Below are positions 1-53,154 of a DNA stretch of 53,310 nucleotides, one piece after another. Both the position numbers and the translations under genes were made by a program. This stretch comes from Flavobacteriia bacterium (GTDB lineage Bacteria > Bacteroidota > Bacteroidia > Flavobacteriales_D > Crocinitomicaceae). How positions within the stretch are numbered: the first letter of the stretch is position 1; the number at the start of each line of letters is the position of its first letter. The stretch is from the NCBI GenBank assembly GCA_009924735.1, contig RFQZ01000017.1, positions 1 to 53,310 of the forward strand, given 5' to 3'. The notes below the pieces were generated by a model. The model saw nothing but the letters and a program-made list of their open reading frames with translations, was not told the origin of the DNA and did not search any database.

Positions 1-1090
1 CGGCTTCGTAGCTAAAATGTGTAAGGGCATAAGTCCTCAATGCGCTGGCATCGAAAGTTTTTCCATCCAATATTGCCCGCATGGCTTCTGCCAATTGTGC
101 TTCATTTCCCCGTTCCACCAAGATGCCATTGCTTTCGTTCGCAAATTCTGGAATGCCATTAACCGCTGTCGTTATCACCGGAACGCCTGACATCCATGCT
201 TCTGGAATTACACATGGAAAATTCTCAAAATTGCTAAACAAAACCAAGGCCTTGCAGTTTCGCAGGAACGAGGCAACCTCTTCCGTACTTTTCGTTCCAT
301 GAAAAAACACCACGCGATTTAACATCCCCAGGGATTTTGCAAGTTTCCGTGCATCGGACACATCTCCATCACTGATGATGTGAAATTCAAAATCCGTTCG
401 CGTTTCCGCAAGAAGATTTACTGCGCGCAACATTCCCAACACATTCTTTGCAGGCTCGAAGGCCGTGGAGATGTGCACCAGGCGATTCAAGTGTGGTGAA
501 TTTTCACCTATTGTAAAAACTTCTTCATGAACGACATTGGGGAGTACCTGATAACTTGCCCCAGACAAAGCTTTAATTCGCTCCCCGAGGTTTGCACTGA
601 CCGGAAGAATCATTTTTGCCCGTCGAAATACAGGAATCATTCGCTTCACCATCCACTTTGGATAAGCATTTGGCCCCTGATGTAAACCGCTCGAATGTTC
701 CGTAATCACCATGGGAATGCCTTGAAAAAACTTTTTCACCCTCAAACCCAATGGAAAGACCACGTTTACATGAATGACATCCGGTTGACCGAATAAAGTA
801 CGATGGGTTTCAACCCCCAGCGCCATCGCTTTTCGCCATTGAAAAAACTGTACAATATTTTTGAAAACGCCTCTGTTTTTTGGATAAAACACCCGCAATT
901 CGACTATGCCATTTCGTTCTGTTCGATCCACGAACCTACTTCCTCCATCCGTTGCATGCAGAGAAAGGGTGGTAACCTTGTTAAACTTCCCCGCAGCTTC
1001 TGCATGTTTTTGAATAAAATTACCCAAAGTGGGGGTATTGGGACTCGGATACCACGAACAAAGAAAAAGGATGTTTAACGGGCGTTGCAT
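1..1090 (-). CDS. Glycosyltransferase family 4 (GT-B), 3'-truncated by window edge
   Basis: About 363 residues are visible; the C-terminus lies beyond position 1. The N-terminus reads LFLCSWYPSPNTPTLGNF, the usual opening of GT4 enzymes, followed by ITEHSSG, a central LVHISTAFEPAKN and a C-terminal nucleotide-sugar-binding stretch with FPCVIPEAWMSGVPVI (the E-x7-E region of GT4). These enzymes transfer a sugar from a nucleotide donor to a surface glycan or lipid in the cytoplasm; the acceptor cannot be told from sequence. The ATG at 1090 overlaps the stop of the upstream cysteine desulfurase by one base (TAATG), so the two are translationally coupled although the pathways are unrelated. Confidence 0.88.
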   Translation of the reverse strand, partial: MQRPLNILFLCSWYPSPNTPTLGNFIQKHAEAAGKFNKVTTLSLHATDGGSRFVDRTERNGIVELRVFYPKNRGVFKNIVQFFQWRKAMALGVETHRTLFGQPDVIHVNVVFPLGLRVKKFFQGIPMVITEHSSGLHQGPNAYPKWMVKRMIPVFRRAKMILPVSANLGERIKALSGASYQVLPNVVHEEVFTIGENSPHLNRLVHISTAFEPAKNVLGMLRAVNLLAETRTDFEFHIISDGDVSDARKLAKSLGMLNRVVFFHGTKSTEEVASFLRNCKALVLFSNFENFPCVIPEAWMSGVPVITTAVNGIPEFANESNGILVERGNEAQLAEAMRAILDGKTFDASALRTYALTHFSYEA

Positions 1091-2229
1091 TACACCAAGG
1101 TCTTGGAAAAAACTTCAAAAACCTGCTGTAAAGCAAAATCAATTTCTGATTGGGTGTTAAACCTAGAGAAAGAAAACCGCGCATTGGGTCTGCGCATGTC
1201 TGCACCAATGCCTTCCAACACATGAGAACCCTTCGCTGCGCCTGAAGAACACGCACTGCCTCCGCTAACCGCTACGCCTTTCAAATCTAAGGTAAACAAT
1301 AGCATGGATGCTTTATCTATGACAGGAAAGGAGACGTTAAGTACGGTATACAAAGAACCTTCTGGGGTAACATCGCCATGGAAATCAAGGGTGTCAAAGT
1401 GACTTTTCAATTTTTCCATCATATAGCTTTTGATTCCCTGCACATGGGCTTGATGGGCTGCTAAATCAGCGTAGGCTAAATCCATGGCCTTGGAAAGCCC
1501 CACGATTCCCGCAATATTCTCCGTTCCGCCACGAAATCCACGTTCCTGAGCACCGCCCAAAATCATTGGTGTCATTTTGATGCGCTTGTTCACATACAAG
1601 AAACCTATGCCTTTTGGCCCATGAAATTTATGTGCTGCGCAGGTAATGAAATCGATATCCAAGGCTTTCAAATCAAAGGCGTAATGTCCCATGGTTTGGA
1701 CGGTATCCGAATGAAAATAAGCCCCGTGCGTTCTACACAAGATAGCCACCTGTTCTATCGGAATCAGGGTAGCAATTTCATTGTTGGCGTGCATTAAGGA
1801 AACCAAGGTTGGTATTTCCTGTTTAAGGAGTTCCTCCAATTCATTCAAATCAATGTGACCTTGTCGATCGACAGAGAGGTAAACCAACTCCAAATCGTGT
1901 TTTTCGCGGAGCATTTCTACCGTATGACCTACGGCATGATGTTCAAGTACCGTTGAGATGATTCTTTTTACCCCCAATTCATTCACTGCAATGTGACAGG
2001 CTAAATTATCTGCTTCGGTTCCGCCAGAAGTAAAATAAATTTCGGAAGGTTGGCAATGCAAATGTTTCGCTACGTTTCTTCGCGCAGTCTCAATGAGCGC
2101 CTTGGTCTCGCGTCCAAAAGAATGACTTGAAGACGGATTTCCAAATTGATGGGTTAAAACCTCACACATGGTTTCAGCAACTTCCTTAGCGACAGGGGTG
2201 GTTGCTGCATTGTCCAAATATACCCGCAT
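1090..2229 (-). CDS. Cysteine desulfurase (NifS/IscS-like)
   Basis: 379 residues, full length for the class V aminotransferase fold. The N-terminus YLDNAATTPV is diagnostic. The PLP Schiff-base lysine is K201 in AAHKFHGPKG; the persulfide-forming cysteine is C327 in SGGSACSSG, the longer active-site loop typical of group I (NifS/IscS) enzymes rather than SufS. It releases sulfur from cysteine as an enzyme-bound persulfide for Fe-S cluster assembly or tRNA thiolation. No iscU, sufBCD or tRNA thiolase gene is adjacent, so the acceptor is not indicated. The start is the first ATG after a TATCTTCG element (2243-2250, minus strand) that resembles the Bacteroidota -7 box. Confidence 0.93.
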   Translation of the reverse strand: MRVYLDNAATTPVAKEVAETMCEVLTHQFGNPSSSHSFGRETKALIETARRNVAKHLHCQPSEIYFTSGGTEADNLACHIAVNELGVKRIISTVLEHHAVGHTVEMLREKHDLELVYLSVDRQGHIDLNELEELLKQEIPTLVSLMHANNEIATLIPIEQVAILCRTHGAYFHSDTVQTMGHYAFDLKALDIDFITCAAHKFHGPKGIGFLYVNKRIKMTPMILGGAQERGFRGGTENIAGIVGLSKAMDLAYADLAAHQAHVQGIKSYMMEKLKSHFDTLDFHGDVTPEGSLYTVLNVSFPVIDKASMLLFTLDLKGVAVSGGSACSSGAAKGSHVLEGIGADMRRPNARFSFSRFNTQSEIDFALQQVFEVFSKTLV

Positions 2230-2286: not shown

Positions 2287-2949
2287 ATGATAAGGATTGG
2301 AACTTTCATTTGTTTACTCGCCCTGACAGGCGTTTTTTACGCCCAAAACAACGATAAACTTAACAGCAGTGGGATGCTTACGATTGGCATTCGTTCCACG
2401 CTTAGCGCTTTCAACGACCAACAAAATGAAATGCCAGGAAAAGGCATCGGCGGACATGCCCGTTTGAGGTTGTCAAAACAAATAAACACCGATTGGTTTT
2501 TCGATTACATCACCAGTGACATCCTGAACTATGCGCATCGTACCGATTACCATATTGGTTGGAGTGTCCTATACTATCCACTTTCAGAATTAAAGTGTTA
2601 CCGAATACAACAGACCAAATACAAACCCCTTTTCCGTCCTTACGTGGTCGCAGGGCATTGCTTCGATTACTCATTGATTCAAGACAAGGCTGACATTAAC
2701 CATTTTGCTGAGCGCTGGAGCTCCGCTGTACAAGCCGGACTAGGAACCCATTTCGAAATCACCCCGAGGTTCGACGTATCCTTAACAGCGCAGTACATGT
2801 TCCATTTGGGAAATCACATTCACATCGATTATGACTTTGACACACAGGTTTTGGAATTTCATGAAGAAAAAGGTGCGCTTCAATCTGGACATTTGTTAAT
2901 CAACCTAAGTTTGAACTACAAAATCGCGAAATTATGGGGAAGAAAATAA
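2287..2949 (+). CDS. Exported outer-membrane beta-barrel-like protein of unknown function
   Basis: 220 residues with a signal peptide (residues 1-20, hydrophobic LLALTGVFYAQ with a Q just after the probable cleavage site, common in Flavobacteriia). The mature part alternates hydrophobic and polar residues and holds aromatic-rich strands (HIGWSVLYYP, LFRPYVVAGH, AAQYMFHLGN-like), suggesting a small 8-10 strand barrel such as outer-membrane protein or acyloxyacyl hydrolase-like families. I do not recognise a specific family. It starts a three-gene plus-strand operon; its 3' end overlaps the next gene by 16 bases. Confidence 0.7.
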   Translation: MIRIGTFICLLALTGVFYAQNNDKLNSSGMLTIGIRSTLSAFNDQQNEMPGKGIGGHARLRLSKQINTDWFFDYITSDILNYAHRTDYHIGWSVLYYPLSELKCYRIQQTKYKPLFRPYVVAGHCFDYSLIQDKADINHFAERWSSAVQAGLGTHFEITPRFDVSLTAQYMFHLGNHIHIDYDFDTQVLEFHEEKGALQSGHLLINLSLNYKIAKLWGRK

Positions 2950-3533
2950 TTTTTGTTCTACTGTGGATTCCTTGTTTTGCCTTCGGTCAAGCAATAAATA
3001 CAGACGAGAGACCTCTGAATTTTGGCCCCTCTTTGTTAAAAGCTTCAGCAACCATTGCCCCCACCCGATTCTACAAAATTTATTCAAGTGCTGCCATGCT
3101 CAATGGTTATTTGGAATACGTCTTGGAAGACAGAATCAGCTTACGCGGTGAAGTTTTTCAGTTCATGCCCAACATTGCAAACCTTAAATTCCAAGCTGTA
3201 AACATCCCAAGAAATTATACGGGTATTCATGCAGGTTTCGGTTATCACATTGGAAAGCGAAACTGGAAACACTCCATTCACCTTGAGCCGGGCGTAAGCA
3301 TCACGGAAATCGCACAAGACAATTACAACATTTCCTATAAATGGTCCGCAAACCCTGCATTGCTTGTGAAGGTTGGTACCTGTTTATACGTTTCCCGTTT
3401 CTTTGATTTTTTTGCAGAAATAAACTGGAGTGACAGCTATGTCCGTAACAATCCTGCTACCTCTGTATCCATGGCCCAAGTCGGCATCAGTGCGGGATTG
3501 GGATTTCACCTACTGACCAAAACAAAAAAATAA
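2934..3533 (+). CDS. Exported outer-membrane beta-barrel-like protein
   Basis: 199 residues, signal peptide 1-19 (IIFVLLWIPCFAFGQ). The rest has amphipathic strands such as NYTGIHAGFGYHIG, HSIHLEPGVSI and a final GISAGLGFHLL, consistent with a small OmpA-like or DUF-type barrel. It overlaps the preceding gene by 16 bases in another frame, and the next gene starts 6 bases after its stop, so all three are probably one transcript. No catalytic motif is visible. The function is unknown. Confidence 0.7.
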   Translation: MGKKIIFVLLWIPCFAFGQAINTDERPLNFGPSLLKASATIAPTRFYKIYSSAAMLNGYLEYVLEDRISLRGEVFQFMPNIANLKFQAVNIPRNYTGIHAGFGYHIGKRNWKHSIHLEPGVSITEIAQDNYNISYKWSANPALLVKVGTCLYVSRFFDFFAEINWSDSYVRNNPATSVSMAQVGISAGLGFHLLTKTKK

Positions 3534-7032: not shown

Positions 7033-7674
7033 ATGTCGAAGAAAATTACTTCCCGAAACGAATACGACGGCCTAGAGAAACGTTTTAAAACGACCTTTTT
7101 CAATAGCATTGCAGGAGTGAAGAACGCCTGTTTGGTCGCTACGAAATCCGCAGATGAAAAAACAAACCTGGCCATTTTCAACTCATTGGTACACATCGGA
7201 GCGAACCCACCCTTGCTTGGACTGGTTTTTCGTCCTGACAGCGTAGAACGCCACAGCTTAGAAAACATCCTGTCAACGGAATTCTTTACCATAAACTTGA
7301 TTGACCAAAGTTTCATTGCCCAAGCGCATCAAACCTCTGCAAGGTATACACGCGAAGAATCGGAATTTATTGAAACGGGACTGCAAGAGGGACATATCGA
7401 AGCCTTTCCTGTTCCTTTCGTATTGAATGCCCAGGTTTCTTTCGGAATGAAATTCAGGGAAAAATTAGAGGTGACCTCGAATGGGACGCAGATACTCATA
7501 GGAGAAGTCGAATGGATGAGGTATCCGGATGAAATCGTCGCACCTGATGGTTTTGCGGACCTTACGAAACTGGGCATTGTTGGCACCCTGGGACTGGACG
7601 CTTACCTTGATGTAAAATTAATTACGCGATTTTCTTACGCAAAACCCAAGCTTCCGCTTCAAAGAAAACCATAG
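7033..7674 (+). CDS. Flavin reductase-like FMN-binding split-barrel protein
   Basis: 213 residues. The segment NACLVATKSADEKTNLAIF, then HIGANPPLLGLVFRP and TEFFTINLID match the flavin reductase-like domain (FMN-binding split barrel): a small-residue/T start, an SxxxP-like loop binding FMN and a conserved central strand. Family members bind FMN and reduce it with NAD(P)H or act as oxidoreductases of unknown substrate. The C-terminal 40 residues (GLDAYLDVKLITRFSYAKP) are typical of the longer Bacteroidota version. Divergent from the TauE permease and convergent with accD (46-bp gap, no clear terminator). Confidence 0.85.
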   Translation: MSKKITSRNEYDGLEKRFKTTFFNSIAGVKNACLVATKSADEKTNLAIFNSLVHIGANPPLLGLVFRPDSVERHSLENILSTEFFTINLIDQSFIAQAHQTSARYTREESEFIETGLQEGHIEAFPVPFVLNAQVSFGMKFREKLEVTSNGTQILIGEVEWMRYPDEIVAPDGFADLTKLGIVGTLGLDAYLDVKLITRFSYAKPKLPLQRKP

Positions 7675-7720
7675 GAAAGTAAGCTTTAATGCTTATAACG
7701 ATTGCCAAAGCACTTCAAAA

Positions 7721-8566
7721 TCAATTCATAAACAATCGAATCGCTTGCGATAATTTGGTGCGAATCTGTGTACGGTCAATGATGAAATCCAAAAATCCAT
7801 GCTCGAGTAAAAACTCTGCTTTTTGAAATCCGTCGGGAAGGTCTCTTCCAATGGTTTCTTTCACGACCCTAGGTCCAGCAAAGGCAATGAGTGCCCCCGG
7901 CTCTGCGATGTTAATGTCACCGAGCATGGCAAACGAAGCCGTCACCCCTCCCGTAGTTGGATCCGTTAAATAAGAAATATAGGGCAACTTCGCTTCTGCC
8001 AACTGACCCAATTTCCCTGAAACCTTCGCCATTTGCATTAAGGAATATCCAGCCTCCATCATTCTCGCTCCGCCTGATTTGGAAATGATCATAAAAGGTG
8101 CCTTCAAACGTATCGCTTCGTCAATGGCCCGTGAAATCTTTTCTCCCATTACGCTTCCCATGGAACCGCCAATGAAACCAAAATCCATGGCAGCAATGAC
8201 CAAAGGATTGCCATCCAACTGTCCTTTCGCGGTGCGAATGGCGTCTTTTAAACCTGTGTTTTTTTGCGTGGCTTTTAGGCGGTCTACGTATTTTTTCGTG
8301 TCTTCAAATTGCAATGGATCTCCAGAAACCAAATCCTGATCAAGCATTTCGAATTTCTTATCATCAAAAATAATCTCAAAATAACTTAACGCATCGATTC
8401 TTTCGTGATGGGAACAACGTTCGCAAACGAAATTGTTTTTGGCTAAATCATTTACAATGTATAAAGTCTTACAATTTGAACACTGCGTCCAATAACCATC
8501 AGGCGTTTCCTTTTTGTCGTTCGTGGAAGTTGTAATTCCTTCCTTTTTTCTTTTAAACCAACTCAT
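7721..8566 (-). CDS. accD: Acetyl-CoA carboxylase carboxyltransferase subunit beta
   Basis: 281 residues. The N-terminal C4 zinc ribbon is intact (C29, C32, C48, C51), followed by the crotonase-fold carboxyltransferase domain with [39 protein letters not shown] and [15 protein letters not shown]. It pairs with AccA to carboxylate acetyl-CoA to malonyl-CoA, the first step of fatty-acid synthesis; accA is not in the window. The ATG is one base after the stop of fba (TAATATG), so both are one operon, linking a glycolytic/gluconeogenic enzyme to lipid synthesis. Confidence 0.97.
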
Positions 8567-12251: not shown

Positions 12252-13067
12252 ATGCGAAATTGGGTTTCAATTAAATCCTACACGGATATAACATTTGATT
12301 TTTTTCAGGGGATTGCAAAAATCACCATTAACAGACCCCACGTTTACAATGCGTTCCGTCCGGAAACCAACATGGAGATGCTGGACGCCATGAACATTTG
12401 CAGGGAGCGTAATGACATCAACGTCGTTGTCTTAACAGGCGCTGGCGACAAAGCATTCTGCTCTGGAGGCGACCAAAATGTCAAAGGAATTGGCGGATAC
12501 ATCTCTGAAAATGGCGTACCAAGGTTAAATGTGTTAGACCTTCACAAAGCCATTCGCTCACTCCCTAAACCAGTCATTGCGATGGTAAATGGCTATGCCA
12601 TTGGTGGTGGACATGTGCTTCATGTTGTTTGCGACCTTACGATTGCCTCTGAAAATGCCATCTTTGGTCAAACCGGACCTAAGGTTGGGAGCTTTGACGG
12701 AGGATTTGGATCTTCCTTCCTCGCGAGACATGTAGGACAAAAGAAAGCCCGAGAAATTTGGTTTTTGTGCAATCAATATACAGCAGAAGAAGCTGAGAAA
12801 ATGGGCATGGTGAATAAAGTTGTGCCGCTTGCTGAACTTGAAAATACCACGGTGGAATGGTGCAACACCATCATGAAAAGAAGCCCCTTGGCCATTCGAA
12901 TGATTAAGCGTTCAATGAATGCCGAATTAGATGGTCAACATGGATTAATGGAGCTTGCTGGTGATGCTACCTTGCTTTATTATTTGACCAATGAAGCCCA
13001 AGAAGGAAAAAATGCCTTCCTCGAAAAAAGAGACCCTGATTTTCAACAATACCCAAAATTCCCTTAA
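12252..13067 (+). CDS. menB: 1,4-dihydroxy-2-naphthoyl-CoA synthase
   Basis: 271 residues from ATG 12252; the [20 protein letters not shown] opening matches the family start, and the longer TTG reading overlaps a promoter box. The crotonase fold is clear: [26 protein letters not shown] (oxyanion hole), [17 protein letters not shown] and [20 protein letters not shown], the latter specific to MenB. It closes the naphthoate ring from O-succinylbenzoyl-CoA in menaquinone synthesis. No other men gene is in the window. pepD follows with a one-base gap, so the two are probably cotranscribed. Confidence 0.96.
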
Positions 13068-16388: not shown

Positions 16389-17136
16389 TCCGAACGCACT
16401 TGCTGATTTTCTGCAGTCCAAAGCGTCTCAATTTGAACATCCAGACTTCATTGAAAACGATCCAATTTCCATTCCCCATCAATACCAAAGGAAGGAAGAC
16501 ATCGAAATCATGGGATTGATGGTAGCTACCATCGCATGGGGCAATCGCATATCCATTCTCAAAAGCGGAAAAAAACTCCAAGAAATATTTGGGGAATCTC
16601 CTTACGATTTCGTCATGAATCACGATTTGAATAGAGAGATAAACTTTGTCCACAGAACCTTTCAAGGAAAAGATTTGGCATTTTTTATTCGCGGATTGCG
16701 ACACACCTACCAACAAGGCGGATTGGAGTTGGCCTTTAAAAACAGCGGTGAAAATGAAGGAATGGTAGACCGTATTGCAAATTTCAGAAAGAAGATGCTC
16801 ACAGTGGAACACCCGCAACGCTGCGAAAAACACATTTCAAACCCATTGAAAAATGCTTCCTGTAAACGCCTCAATATGTATCTCCGTTGGATGGTGAGGT
16901 CTGCAGCAAAAGGGGTGGATTTCGGTATCTGGAAAAGCATTTCTCCGGCCGAACTTTACATTCCATTGGATGTTCACACAGGGAATGTGGCGCGCAAACT
17001 TGGGATTTTAGAAAGGACACAAAACGACTGGAAGTCCAATGTTTTACTTATTGAATACTTCAAAACACTTGACCCATTGGACCCCGCTAAATTTGACTTC
17101 GCACTCTTTGGATTGGGTGCCATGGAAAAATTCTAA
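16372..17136 (+). CDS. TIGR02757 family protein
   Basis: 254 residues. The pattern [18 protein letters not shown] near the N-terminus, [18 protein letters not shown], then [29 protein letters not shown] and a final [12 protein letters not shown] match the TIGR02757 family, a Bacteroidota/spirochaete protein of unknown function with a helix-hairpin-helix base-excision-glycosylase flavour (the [13 protein letters not shown] segment resembles the HhH-GPD catalytic region). It overlaps the LolD-like gene by 17 bases and shares four bases (CTAA) with the convergent gene's stop. Confidence 0.8.
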
Positions 17137-42124: not shown

Positions 42125-43735
<1,611 letters not shown>

Positions 43736-46700
43736 ATGCAAAGATTTTTACTTGTCTTTTTTACTACACTCATCCTTTCAAGCCTCCACTCACAAAACAA
43801 CGCAGGTTGTCCAAATGCCAACTTTAGTATGGCAAATTTCAACAATTGGACAGGTTATTATGGTAGCTACGGTAGTCCGGCCGCTTCCATGGGAATTGTA
43901 GGCGGGAGGCACACAATCATAAGCGCCCCAGGCGTCGATCCATTCTCGTGTGGTGGATTACAAATGATACCTCCAGGAAGCACAGCCTCAGCACGTTTGG
44001 GTAATTCCAACACCGGTTCAGAGGCCGAACAGTTGAAATATACCATGACGGTAACACCTCAAAACGCTTTGTTCATATACAAATATGCGTGTGTTTTGGA
44101 AGACCCTGGACATGAAGCAGCGGCTCAGCCTGTTTTTCAAATGCGTTTATTGGATGCAAACGGAAACCAAATTGGGGGCAATTGTGGAGTGTATACAGTT
44201 TATGCGGGTCAAGCCGGACAAAATTTCCAGAACTGCGGATCCGTAAAATGGCTTCCATGGACGATTGTGGGTGTTAACCTGACTGCATATATGGGTACAA
44301 ACGTGACGGTGGAGTTTACGACTAAGGATTGTAATTATGGTGGGCACTTTGGATATGCATATGTTGTCGCCGATTGCATGCCTTTGGTCTTGGACTTAGA
44401 CTACTGCTTCGGTTCACCCAACATAAACATCGCAGGACCCTCTGGTTTCCAAAGCTACAGCTGGTCGAACGGTGCCAACACACAAGCAATTTCAGTTCCT
44501 GCTGCTACAGCATTACCAACCTACACTGTAACCATGCAATCGTTTTCAAACCAGGGAAACTGTACTGTGTCCTTAACGGCATCCGCAATACCAACAACCG
44601 TTCAAAACAATTTTACCGTTACGCAAGCTTGCCCATGGGCTTTAACACAATTCAACAGCACACCCACCATATTACCTACAAGTATAAATGGTGTTGCGTT
44701 AGCCAACGGCGGAGCAGCTTCTTGGTTTTGGAATTTTGGGGATGGAAGTACCCTTAACGGAAACAATCCTGCTGTTCACCAAAACCCAACACATATTTAT
44801 CAAAACCCTGGTACCTATACCGTAACACACGTCGTTTACACACAGGCAGGATGTTTAGATACTGCAATACAAACCATTCAGGTCCTTCCTCCACCTGTGA
44901 TAAATTTTACTTTTAACAATGCTTGTGTAGGTGCGACTGTAAACACCGTTAACCAAACACAAGACCCAAATTTGGCAGCAGTTACGTATCAATGGATTTG
45001 GGGAGACAATACCCCAAACAGCACAACAACCAATGCTACACACACGTATCAAAACGCAGGAACTTATCAACTTGGACTTGCGGCTACGAATGTAGGAGGG
45101 TGTGCCGATACCTTATACCAAGCGGTAACGATTTATCCATTACCTCCTGTGAATGCTGGAAACGATGTATCGATTTGTCCAGGAACCACTATCCAACTTA
45201 CGGCTACAGGTGCTACAACCTATACTTGGGAAACAGGTACGGCTAACGGTGGAAATTACACTCCTTTGATCAATGAGACATTGACAGTAACAGGTATTGG
45301 AAACAACAATTGTGTCAACCAAGATTCAATGACCATCACACTTTATCCAAATGCAGTTGTCAATGCGGGACCTGATGTTAGTTTATGTTTAGGAAGTTCA
45401 ACTACCCTAACCGCAACTGGTTCAAATACCTATCAATGGAACAATGGAATCATTAATGGGCAAACATTTACGCCTCCATTAGGGGTTACAACGAACATCG
45501 TAACAGGAACTTCTGTAGATGGATGTACCAATACAGACACAATGATTCTGACCATTTGGTCAAACCCATCATTGAATGCTGGTCCTAATCAAATAGTTTG
45601 CGAAGGCGACTCTACCGTATTAACTGCGACAGGTGCCGTAACTTATCAGTGGACAGGAGGTGTTACCAATAATGTTTACTTTGTTCCTCAAACATCAGGA
45701 TTGTGGATCGTTTCAGGAATTGACTCAAATGGTTGTAATGGAATTGATACCTTAACCATTACCATTCCTCAGCCCACGGTCTTCGCAGGAAACGACACAA
45801 GCATCTGTCCTGGATTTAGCATTCCTTTAAATGCAACTTTGTCAAATACATATCAATGGATAACAAATACGGTAAACGGAAACCAATTTACACCACAAAA
45901 CAGTCAAGCGATTTCAGTTATTGGTTTTGATGTGAACCTATGTCCCGCCTATGACACATTGCTCGTAACGGTATTTCCAACACCCATCGTAAATGCTGGA
46001 CCAGACATTCAAGTCTGTTCGGGGACCTCGGTAACAATTACAGGAAGCGGGGTAAATACGTATGTTTGGAACAACGGATTGATTAATGGTCAAACATTTA
46101 CACCACCGGTTGGCATTGTTAATTACACAGTTACCGGTACTGATGTTAATGGTTGTATTGATACAGACATCATGCAACTAACGGTATGGGCGAATCCAAT
46201 TGTGAATGCAGGAGCCAGTCAAAACATTTGCGAGGGAGCACCCACTTCTGTTTCTGGTTCTGGTGCGAACACATATGTTTGGAACAACAATGTTCAAAAC
46301 GGTGTTTCTTTTGTTCCTACGGTTAACAATACGTATAATGTGATCGGTACAGATCTGAATGGTTGTATAGGGGCAGACAGTTTAATCATCAACATAGAAC
46401 CAGCCTCAATTCCATCCTTTAGCGCACCTATACTTGAAGGATGTAATCCGTTTACTGTTAATTTAACGAATACATCCATTGGTACGCCTTATACAAACGC
46501 GCAATGGGATATGGGGAATGGTTCGGTTTTCAATTCAATGACACCTGTAATCTACACCTATCAACAAGCAGGTTGCTATGATGTTGAATTGACCCTAACT
46601 ACCGCACTGGGTTGTGTTTGGGACACCATGGTGCCGAATTATTTCTGCGATCATCCACTTCCAATCGCAGACTTCCTTCCAAACCCAGCTTTGCTGACAG

Positions 46701-47200
46701 ATTTAGATAACATGAGTACCATGCTTAACAACAGTTCTGGTGCGTCATTCTATGTTTGGGATTTTGGAGATGGCGTAGGAACATCCACAGAGTTTGAACC
46801 AAGTTATTTTTTCCCAAATGATCAAACCGCTAATTTTTTAGTGAGCCTTATTGCCATTACAAATTATGGATGTTTGGACACAGCAATGATGGTTGTCACA
46901 CTAAACGAAACCCAACTCCTATTTGTTCCGAACACCTTTACTCCAGATGGAAATGAATACAATCAAAACTGGTTTCCCGTAATTACCGCTGCATTCGATC
47001 CATACGATTATCAATGCTACATTTATAACCGTTGGGGTGAGTTGATCTGGGAGAATCACAATCACCTTACAGGGTGGGACGGAAAACGTTTGAATGGAAT
47101 GGATATCGAAGAAGGTATATATACTTGGAAGATTATTCTTAAATCTCCGTACAAAGACGAAAGAAAAGTATTCACAGGACATGTAACTTTATTAAGATAA
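43736..47200 (+). CDS. Giant secreted protein: six Ig-like repeats, PKD domains, type B T9SS C-terminal domain
   Basis: 1154 residues, signal peptide 1-19. After an N-terminal jelly-roll-like domain (about 20-215, NLTAYMGTNVTVEFTTKDCN) come PKD-type domains (about 320-470 with WNFGDGSTLNG and WGDNTPN), six Ig-like repeats of about 70 residues (471-889, each starting NAGxxxxxCxG), two more PKD-like domains (about 900-1055, VWDFGDG) and a type B sorting domain (1061-1154: VPNTFTPDGNEYN, YIYNRWGELIWE, GWDGKRLNG, GIYTWKI). The sorting domain directs type IX secretion and surface attachment; an adhesive role is inferred. The tail is diagnostic of the gliding-motility-associated C-terminal family. 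Confidence 0.92.
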   Translation: MQRFLLVFFTTLILSSLHSQNNAGCPNANFSMANFNNWTGYYGSYGSPAASMGIVGGRHTIISAPGVDPFSCGGLQMIPPGSTASARLGNSNTGSEAEQLKYTMTVTPQNALFIYKYACVLEDPGHEAAAQPVFQMRLLDANGNQIGGNCGVYTVYAGQAGQNFQNCGSVKWLPWTIVGVNLTAYMGTNVTVEFTTKDCNYGGHFGYAYVVADCMPLVLDLDYCFGSPNINIAGPSGFQSYSWSNGANTQAISVPAATALPTYTVTMQSFSNQGNCTVSLTASAIPTTVQNNFTVTQACPWALTQFNSTPTILPTSINGVALANGGAASWFWNFGDGSTLNGNNPAVHQNPTHIYQNPGTYTVTHVVYTQAGCLDTAIQTIQVLPPPVINFTFNNACVGATVNTVNQTQDPNLAAVTYQWIWGDNTPNSTTTNATHTYQNAGTYQLGLAATNVGGCADTLYQAVTIYPLPPVNAGNDVSICPGTTIQLTATGATTYTWETGTANGGNYTPLINETLTVTGIGNNNCVNQDSMTITLYPNAVVNAGPDVSLCLGSSTTLTATGSNTYQWNNGIINGQTFTPPLGVTTNIVTGTSVDGCTNTDTMILTIWSNPSLNAGPNQIVCEGDSTVLTATGAVTYQWTGGVTNNVYFVPQTSGLWIVSGIDSNGCNGIDTLTITIPQPTVFAGNDTSICPGFSIPLNATLSNTYQWITNTVNGNQFTPQNSQAISVIGFDVNLCPAYDTLLVTVFPTPIVNAGPDIQVCSGTSVTITGSGVNTYVWNNGLINGQTFTPPVGIVNYTVTGTDVNGCIDTDIMQLTVWANPIVNAGASQNICEGAPTSVSGSGANTYVWNNNVQNGVSFVPTVNNTYNVIGTDLNGCIGADSLIINIEPASIPSFSAPILEGCNPFTVNLTNTSIGTPYTNAQWDMGNGSVFNSMTPVIYTYQQAGCYDVELTLTTALGCVWDTMVPNYFCDHPLPIADFLPNPALLTDLDNMSTMLNNSSGASFYVWDFGDGVGTSTEFEPSYFFPNDQTANFLVSLIAITNYGCLDTAMMVVTLNETQLLFVPNTFTPDGNEYNQNWFPVITAAFDPYDYQCYIYNRWGELIWENHNHLTGWDGKRLNGMDIEEGIYTWKIILKSPYKDERKVFTGHVTLLR
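45356..46405 (+). repeat. Duplicated block of Ig-like repeats (period about 630 bp)
   Basis: Within the six 70-residue repeats, R1/R4 share AGNDxSICPG, R2/R5 share WNNGxINGQTFTPP and end in WxNP, and R3/R6 share the CEG motif. R2 starts at 45356 and R5 at 45986, exactly 630 bp apart, so a three-repeat block appears to have been duplicated. Confidence 0.6.
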
Positions 47201-50743: not shown

Positions 50744-51760
50744 TTGAAACATTTTCCCCCTACAGAATTGGCTTTAAATGCTTGTCAGCAAGTATATCAT
50801 TTAGGGTTATCGCCTGAGAATATTGCCGATACCATTTTATTGGTCGGTGACCAAGACAGGGTTTCTTTGATTTCCGATTTTTTTGATGAGATCACTCATA
50901 AAAGCAATCACAGAGAATTTGTTTGCCATACTGGTATCTATCATGGCAAAAGAATCAGTGCATTGTCAACGGGAATTGGTACAGACAACATAGACATTAC
51001 GGTTAATGAACTCGATGCCTTGGTCAACATTGATTTACAGAATCGTACTGAAATCGCTGAAAAAAAGAAACTTAAACTGATACGCATAGGGACTTGCGGA
51101 ATCTTGCAACCACAAATACCCATTCACAGCTACATCGTTTCTTCACATGCCTTTGGTTTAGACAACGTTGCTCATTTCTACGACATTGATTTTTTAGACC
51201 ACGAGGTCTTTATGAACGATAAGCTGAAAACATTTTTAAATCTTCCAGAACGCATCAGTCCATACTTTGTATCTGCAGACCCTTCATTGACCTACCTACT
51301 TACGAGCGACCGTGCTTTTCCGGGCATTACGATTACCAGTTCTGGTTTCTACGGTCCGCAAGGAAGACAATTGCGACTCAATACAAAAATCGCCGACATC
51401 CAAATGAAATCACAGTATTTCGAGGAAAATTCGCTAAGGCTTATGAACTTTGAAATGGAAAGTTCTGCGTTATTCGCGTTAGGAAGAGCCTTAGGTCATC
51501 AGTGCGCAACCATTTGCTTGGGTGTGGCTAATCGTCCTACAGAAACATTTTCAGATGGTTACAAGGAGCATATGCAGGGTTTGATAGCATATGTATTGGG
51601 AATAGGCCTCAACGACGTTGGGAATTTCCTTTCTACAGGGTCCGCACCAAGATGCCCAAAAATCAATGAGAACATATTTCCCTTTCAATTTGGACAATTT
51701 TATTTTTTTTCCTTTGTGGGACACCAAGCTAATTTCGGGTGCTTTTCCTTTAGGCGGTGA
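50744..51760 (+). CDS. Nucleoside phosphorylase (uridine phosphorylase-like) with an aberrant C-terminus
   Basis: 338 residues starting at TTG 50744 (N-terminus TELALNACQQVYHLGLSPEN matches the family, and no ATG is suitable). Conserved phosphorylase motifs: ILLVGDQDRV, STGIGTDNIDITVNELDAL, KLIRIGTCG, SGFYGPQGR and MNFEMESSALFALGRALGH. It should release ribose-1-phosphate from nucleosides. Homology ends near residue 285 (GLIAYVL, position about 51598); the last 53 residues are the reverse complement of a TlpA-like gene and look like non-functional tail. Normal enzymes end within a few residues of this point. Confidence 0.88.
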   Translation: MKHFPPTELALNACQQVYHLGLSPENIADTILLVGDQDRVSLISDFFDEITHKSNHREFVCHTGIYHGKRISALSTGIGTDNIDITVNELDALVNIDLQNRTEIAEKKKLKLIRIGTCGILQPQIPIHSYIVSSHAFGLDNVAHFYDIDFLDHEVFMNDKLKTFLNLPERISPYFVSADPSLTYLLTSDRAFPGITITSSGFYGPQGRQLRLNTKIADIQMKSQYFEENSLRLMNFEMESSALFALGRALGHQCATICLGVANRPTETFSDGYKEHMQGLIAYVLGIGLNDVGNFLSTGSAPRCPKINENIFPFQFGQFYFFSFVGHQANFGCFSFRR

Positions 51761-51850
51761 CGATACTTCTTTTTGGTTGAAGCAAAATGCAGCACAAAGA
51801 ATGACGGCAAGCATCATAAAAGGAAGGAAAATTGTTTTGTTTTTCATCAT
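51551..51850 (-). pseudogene. Truncated TlpA-like thioredoxin-fold protein
   Basis: 99 residues starting at ATG 51850, overlapping the murA stop (ATGATGA). A lipoprotein-like leader (1-23, AVILCAAFC) and TlpA motifs are clear: KGKAPEISLVSHKGKKI, then VLIDFWASWCGPCRKEIPNV with an intact CGPC redox site. Homology stops at AYSQY (position about 51593), only 16 residues past the CxxC, and the frame then runs 13 residues into antisense of the nucleoside phosphorylase gene. The second half of the thioredoxin fold, including the cis-proline strand, is missing, so a folded product is unlikely. Confidence 0.75.
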
Positions 51851-53154
51851 CCAATTCTTCTGATGTCGGCACCAATGTTATTGAGACGTATTTCAATGTC
51901 TTGGTATCCGCGGTCAATTTGTTCAATGTTATGGATTACGCTTTTTCCTCTGGCGGACAAGGCAGCAATTAGGAGTGAAACCCCCGCACGAATGTCAGGT
52001 GAGGTCATGGAAATTCCGCGCAATTGAAACTCTCGATTCAAACCAATTACGGTCGCACGGTGTGGATCGCAAAGGATGATTTGTGCGCCCATGTCAATTA
52101 ATTTATCGACAAAAAACAACCTTGACTCGAACATTTTTTGGTGAATCAACACAGAACCTTTGGCTTGGGTTGCAATGACAAGGATGATGGACAATAAATC
52201 TGGGGTAAATCCTGGCCATGGTGCATCGTAAACGGTAAGGATGGAGCCATCAATAAACGTATCAATTTCGTAATTTTCTTGTGCAGGAATGTAGATGTCA
52301 TCCCCTCGTCTTTCGAGCTTAACACCCAGACGTTTAAACACATTCGGGATGATTCCCAAGTTGTCCCAACTCACGTCTTTAATGGTGATTTCAGATTGTG
52401 TCATGGCAGCCAATCCAATAAAACTTCCAATTTCGATCATATCGGGAAGAATTCTATGAAAGCAACCTTTAAGTTCAGACACACCTTCAATGTGAAGTAA
52501 GTTGGAACCAATGCCTTCTATTTTTGCGCCCATCGAATTCAACATCTTACATAACTGCTGAATGTAGGGTTCACAAGCCGCATTGTAGAAAGTTGTTTTA
52601 CCTTTCGCCATAACAGCAGCCATGAGTATGTTCGCTGTACCCGTTACAGAAGCCTCGTCCAAATGGATGTAGGTTCCTTTCAAGTGTTTTGCTTCGATGG
52701 AATAAAAATGTTCTCCCGCGTCGTAGTTAAATTTTGCGCCAAGCAGGGTGAAACCTTCAAAATGGGTATCTAGCCTTCTTCGACCAATTTTATCTCCCCC
52801 TGGTTTTGGGATAAAACCTTTCCCAAAGCGTGCGAGCAGAGGGCCAACAATCATAATAGAACCGCGAAGCGAGGAGGCTCTTTTCTTAAAATCCTCCGTT
52901 TCTAGGTAACTTAAATCAATTTCTTTGGCTTGAAAAATATAGGTTCCTTTCTCGACTTTCTCCACCTTCACACCCATGGTTTGGAGCAAACCAATGAGTT
53001 TATTAACATCGACAATATCGGGTACGTTGGAAATTGTGACTTTTTCGGAAGTTAACAAAGGAGCACAAAGAACTTGAAGTGCTTCATTTTTTGCGCCTTG
53101 AGGATAAAGGTCCCCTTTTAGTGGTTTTCCACCATAAATTTCAAAAGATGCCAT
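51847..53154 (-). CDS. murA: UDP-N-acetylglucosamine 1-carboxyvinyltransferase, Cys-to-Asp variant
   Basis: 435 residues. MurA motifs: GAKNEALQVLCAPLL with the catalytic K22, LRGSIMIVGPLLARFGKG, KPGGDKIGRRRLDTHF, ASVTGTANILMAA and DRGYQDIEIRLNNIGA. The residue equivalent to E. coli Cys115 (in the PGGC loop) is Asp121 here. It transfers enolpyruvate to UDP-GlcNAc, the first step of peptidoglycan synthesis; Asp at this position is active but cannot be alkylated by fosfomycin. The ATG overlaps the preceding stop by one base (TAATG), and the TlpA fragment follows directly. Confidence 0.97.
   Translation of the reverse strand: MASFEIYGGKPLKGDLYPQGAKNEALQVLCAPLLTSEKVTISNVPDIVDVNKLIGLLQTMGVKVEKVEKGTYIFQAKEIDLSYLETEDFKKRASSLRGSIMIVGPLLARFGKGFIPKPGGDKIGRRRLDTHFEGFTLLGAKFNYDAGEHFYSIEAKHLKGTYIHLDEASVTGTANILMAAVMAKGKTTFYNAACEPYIQQLCKMLNSMGAKIEGIGSNLLHIEGVSELKGCFHRILPDMIEIGSFIGLAAMTQSEITIKDVSWDNLGIIPNVFKRLGVKLERRGDDIYIPAQENYEIDTFIDGSILTVYDAPWPGFTPDLLSIILVIATQAKGSVLIHQKMFESRLFFVDKLIDMGAQIILCDPHRATVIGLNREFQLRGISMTSPDIRAGVSLLIAALSARGKSVIHNIEQIDRGYQDIEIRLNNIGADIRRIG

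Follow-up and report, generated by a model that had tools for sequence, protein, structure and literature searches.

A probable recent 287-bp deletion joining convergent nucleoside phosphorylase and TlpA-like thioredoxin genes in a Crocinitomicaceae contig

Close to one end of a 53,310-bp contig from a Crocinitomicaceae genome (this whole contig is hereafter called the window), two open reading frames overlap tail to tail: a nucleoside phosphorylase of 338 codons on the plus strand (50744-51760) and a TlpA-like thioredoxin of 99 codons on the minus strand (51551-51850). Phosphorylase homology stops at residue 285 (GLIAYVL), after which 53 codons are read antisense to TlpA, and homology of the thioredoxin to its relatives stops at about residue 86, after which 13 codons are read antisense to the phosphorylase; both codon counts had been given in an earlier note on this DNA and hold on a check of the open reading frames. 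The question raised by the locus is whether these frames were left by a deletion, produced by an assembly error, or established as functional genes. The reading we favor, with a probability of about 0.75, is that the sequenced strain recently lost 287 bp by deletion. The features are collected in Table 1.

Table 1. Coordinates of the phosphorylase/TlpA locus in the window
Feature	Position	Strand	Basis
Nucleoside phosphorylase (PNP_UDP_1 superfamily), homologous part: residues 1-285 and first base of codon 286	50744..51599	+	Pfam PF01048; identity to L069
New tail of the phosphorylase, 53 codons and stop, antisense to TlpA	51599..51760	+	Absent from P0001, L069, and 29/29 same-genus loci
Putative deletion junction, break 51599/51600; 287 bases (L069 1347-1633) missing	51593..51600	.	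Alignment to L069
TlpA/ResA-like thioredoxin, codons 1-83 and two bases of codon 84; N-terminal segment and WASWCGPC kept, rest lost	51600..51850	-	Pfam AhpC-TSA
New end of the truncated TlpA, antisense to the phosphorylase, with stop codon	51551..51599	-	ORF list and alignment to L069

The intact counterpart and the missing bases

An intact counterpart of the locus was obtained by a phosphorylase scan of genome_contigs, which holds one genome per species and from which records very near the window's may be absent. Of the 59 stretches matched, one encoded a relative (L069, record CAMCWF010000002.1), in which a 288-aa phosphorylase (491-1357, plus strand) converges on a 176-aa TlpA/ResA-like thioredoxin (1354-1884, minus strand), with a 4-base overlap of the stop codons. 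The DNA of L069 is ∼97% identical to the window at the locus (97.5% over 1719 bases right of the junction and 96.7% over 1265 bases left of it), and on this sequence comparison its genome (G060) is probably of the same species as the window's. The title of the L069 record (MAG, Chryseobacterium gleum) seems at odds with the names of related proteins (e.g., Fluviicola, Crocinitomicaceae); positions 1-81 of L069, at the contig end, had no match to the window and translate into an arginine- and proline-rich sequence, perhaps a chimeric contig end.

Across the window as a whole, ten colinear or near-colinear blocks were shared with G060, at 97% (two), 96% (three), 95% (two), 93, 87, and 86% identity. 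Block lengths agree between the two genomes to one base or better, and the sequences flanking the 287-bp gap account for two of the ten. Five stretches of the window, lying between blocks, had no match in G060 (2716-3458, 7584-8297, 12290-12773, 16560-16806, and 43542-46171), which may reflect G060 contig ends or real differences; the last lies mostly inside an open reading frame of 1154 aa (43736-47200) that looks like a repetitive surface protein.

Exactly 287 bases of the L069 locus are missing from the window: the three final phosphorylase codons except for one base, their stop codon, and the part of TlpA after about codon 84. The earlier note had both homologies meeting at a single junction, a position that proved right almost to the base; DNA alignment refined the last homologous base to the break given in Table 1 and placed the end of genuine TlpA sequence within codon 84; in the short protein, residue Q85 is encoded by the phosphorylase side, and the bases encoding Y86 are shared by the two sides. 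The pentamer GTATT (51593-51597) is present at both endpoints of the L069 locus, two bases from the join; the next two bases differ between the endpoints (GG versus TT), and the GG of the window is that of the left endpoint only. At the join itself there is no uninterrupted homology with the L069 alleles, the shared run being 5 bp in register, and in L069 a run of at least 5 occurs in 0.9% of the 7-bp registers spaced 287 apart, the GTATT run lying two bases off the join. The three direct-repeat families found in L069 1300-1700 have spacings of 198, 169, and 16, and repeat-mediated collapse was rejected because none of the three is spaced 287. Chance resemblance is ruled out by the 287 missing bases together with the identity of the two flanks. 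Immediately internal to the right endpoint is an imperfect inverted repeat (L069 1585-1626) with a 4-nt loop and 19-nt arms of 74% complementarity, which may be due to chance.

Distribution among relatives, the lost piece, and the age of the lesion

The search covered 60 related genomes, 36 of the same genus, and, at a limit of 30 loci, 29 same-genus loci were compared besides the window's own; seven same-genus genomes fall outside the counts (no match in G001 and G016, a partial match in G034, and a match but no retrieved locus in G010, G011, G013, and G019). TlpA adjoined the phosphorylase, on the opposite strand and convergent, in the fetched flank of 22 of the 29 loci. In 21 of those 22 it was full length (about 173-180 aa), the two stop codons being separated by -11 to 29 bases, and in the remaining one, L056, it is interrupted by an internal stop; the other seven loci had no TlpA in the fetched flank. 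Whether relatives share the short TlpA and the extended phosphorylase, a comparison that the earlier note had proposed, was examined directly: the fused form was present in none of the 29 same-genus loci, nor in L069, and the phosphorylases of the 29 end at 287-290 aa.

Protein searches gave a similar picture. The top match among 8000 scored phosphorylase candidates was P0001, a 288-aa protein standing for 47 members; it covers 84% of the query at 99% identity and ends normally, in YVLDRI; the window's own phosphorylase may be among its members. The 338-aa form was not among the best 120 of the 8000 candidates, entries that are clusters at 90% identity and could hide a fused form. With the L069 thioredoxin as query, P0241 was recovered (176 aa, 96% identical, 23 members); with the window's 99-aa TlpA as query, an identical protein was not among the best 120 of 1215 matches. 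No second sequence with the junction was found among the 120 + 120 entries listed (90% identity clusters), which an assembly error would also predict.

The source genome, 99.45% complete, totals 2.5 Mb over 74 contigs, and the window is one of these, C9, in full. The idea that the missing half of TlpA might lie elsewhere in the genome was not borne out: it was found on no contig of the assembly, either with L069 1300-1700 as a DNA query or with the missing 90 residues as a protein query. The DNA search gave 19 matches at E values up to 10, including both flanks; the strongest of the others were a 79-bp stretch on contig C19 (78%), the paralogue of the right flank, and 21 bp on C37 identical to L069 1617-1637, a T-rich stretch, the latter match being taken as chance. 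The protein query recovered three paralogues (43 and 41% on C19 and 28% on C13).

Over codons 1-83, TlpA differs from L069 at seven sites (eight when one junction base is included), all silent and none a replacement, for which the chance without constraint is 1.4e-5. The phosphorylase carries 24 silent and three replacement differences, and the neighboring gene (51847-53154), which we take to be MurA, 28 silent and two replacement differences, a similar constraint. The silent-only differences indicate that TlpA remained intact through most of the period since divergence of the two genomes, and that the lesion is either recent or not in the organism; the absence of decay is equally compatible with an assembly error and with a young lesion.

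Deletion, assembly error, or established arrangement

The earlier note had named two possible origins: fusion of convergent genes by a deletion, or a chimeric join made during assembly. A chimera of unrelated sequences is ruled out, since L069 is collinear with both flanks, and the deletion is supported by the same locus, in which both genes are intact with 287 extra bases between collinear flanks. The intact P0001 and P0241, the lack of the fused form in all 29 same-genus loci, the absence of the missing piece elsewhere in the source genome, the silent-only divergence of TlpA codons 1-83, and the absence of N bases from the window also argue for deletion. A local assembly error, in which contig ends were joined across a 287-bp gap by the assembler or scaffolder while the organism's genes remain intact, is less likely, although well short of negligible: the junction is 1.7 kb from a contig end in an assembly split over 74 contigs, the remaining TlpA is constrained and undecayed, and the short TlpA has no entry of its own among the best 120 of 1215 matches. 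Against such an error, the window is without N, the endpoints share 5 bp in register only, none of the three direct-repeat families found around the missing segment in L069 is spaced 287, and the missing piece is on no other contig; moreover, de Bruijn assemblers are not known to join on 5-7 bp. An established, selected arrangement, in which the longer phosphorylase and the shorter TlpA would be functional products of this lineage, is very improbable; both frames are open and translatable, but they are shared by none of the 29 same-genus loci, nor by L069, the near-identical proteins P0001 and P0241 end normally, and each tail is an antisense reading of the opposite gene.

The favored deletion would have removed the 3′ ends of both genes where they met in a 4-base overlap of stop codons: all but one base of the three final phosphorylase codons, the phosphorylase stop, and TlpA beginning at the end of codon 84. 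The phosphorylase frame would then continue for 53 codons antisense to TlpA, and that of TlpA for 13 codons antisense to the phosphorylase. Its cause was likely illegitimate recombination by short homology, or replication slippage, with GTATT at both ends. Small variable segments within bacterial species are attributed to illegitimate recombination in a published study (Genome Biol 2010 11:R45, PMC2884548), which also reports that repeats of 5 bp or more flank 10 to 18% of them, frequently together with a deletion, and proposes replication slippage between the repeats. The loss seen here resembles the segments described in that study in being small, strain-specific, and within coding sequence, whereas it represents one event in one assembly of another species, with a 5-bp match two bases off the join. 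The junction is best regarded as recent gene damage of an ordinary kind, an assembly error being the possible alternative. For annotation, the 338-aa phosphorylase and 99-aa thioredoxin are to be read as products of one deletion (or assembly error) rather than as new protein forms, and the locus supplies a precisely mapped, probably young deletion.

The two predicted proteins

The tailed phosphorylase matched Pfam PF01048 (E 6e-25; 88.5 bits versus a cut-off of 25.1) over residues 31-260, the same span as in the intact L069 protein, to which it is 98.9% identical over 285 aa; it differs in that the last three residues are replaced by the 53-residue antisense tail. For the uridine phosphorylase equivalog TIGR01718, it scored 96.3 bits, below the cut-off of 280.3, as did the intact L069 form (98.5). 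With only three C-terminal residues lost, the phosphorylase probably still works.

The short TlpA retains the N-terminal segment and the CxxC active site (WASWCGPC) of TlpA/ResA-like thiol-disulfide oxidoreductases, scoring 46.3 bits against AhpC-TSA (cut-off 26) and 41.4 against Redoxin (26.6), but is without the fold beyond the CGPC helix. The loss of the fold after CGPC, proposed in the earlier note, is apparent in the AhpC-TSA match, which spans residues 36-86 (profile 4-55 of 124) in the window and 36-156 (4-123) in the 176-aa L069 protein. ResA NF002854, the best NCBIfam match, was below its cut-off of 170 bits (60.4, versus 88.7 for the intact L069 form). By analogy with the known thioredoxin fold, the truncated protein is expected to be inactive, because the CGPC is kept but the later strands and cis-proline that complete the fold after the CxxC helix are gone.

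The best match of the 99-aa TlpA was the near-identical P0121 (119 aa, from a MAG), which matches the L069 protein through residue 87 and then follows another frame of the L069 gene, a separate frameshift, as judged from its protein sequence, and not the deletion of the window. Additionally, one same-genus locus, L056 (genome G029; also L024), has a phosphorylase-adjacent TlpA with an internal TGA after ∼47 codons. Taken with the 287-bp deletion, these two cases might suggest that TlpA has been lost repeatedly in the lineage because it is dispensable, a reading that we consider doubtful. The P0121 frameshift lies three to four codons past the window's deletion endpoint and may have arisen as an independent lesion or through sequencing error.
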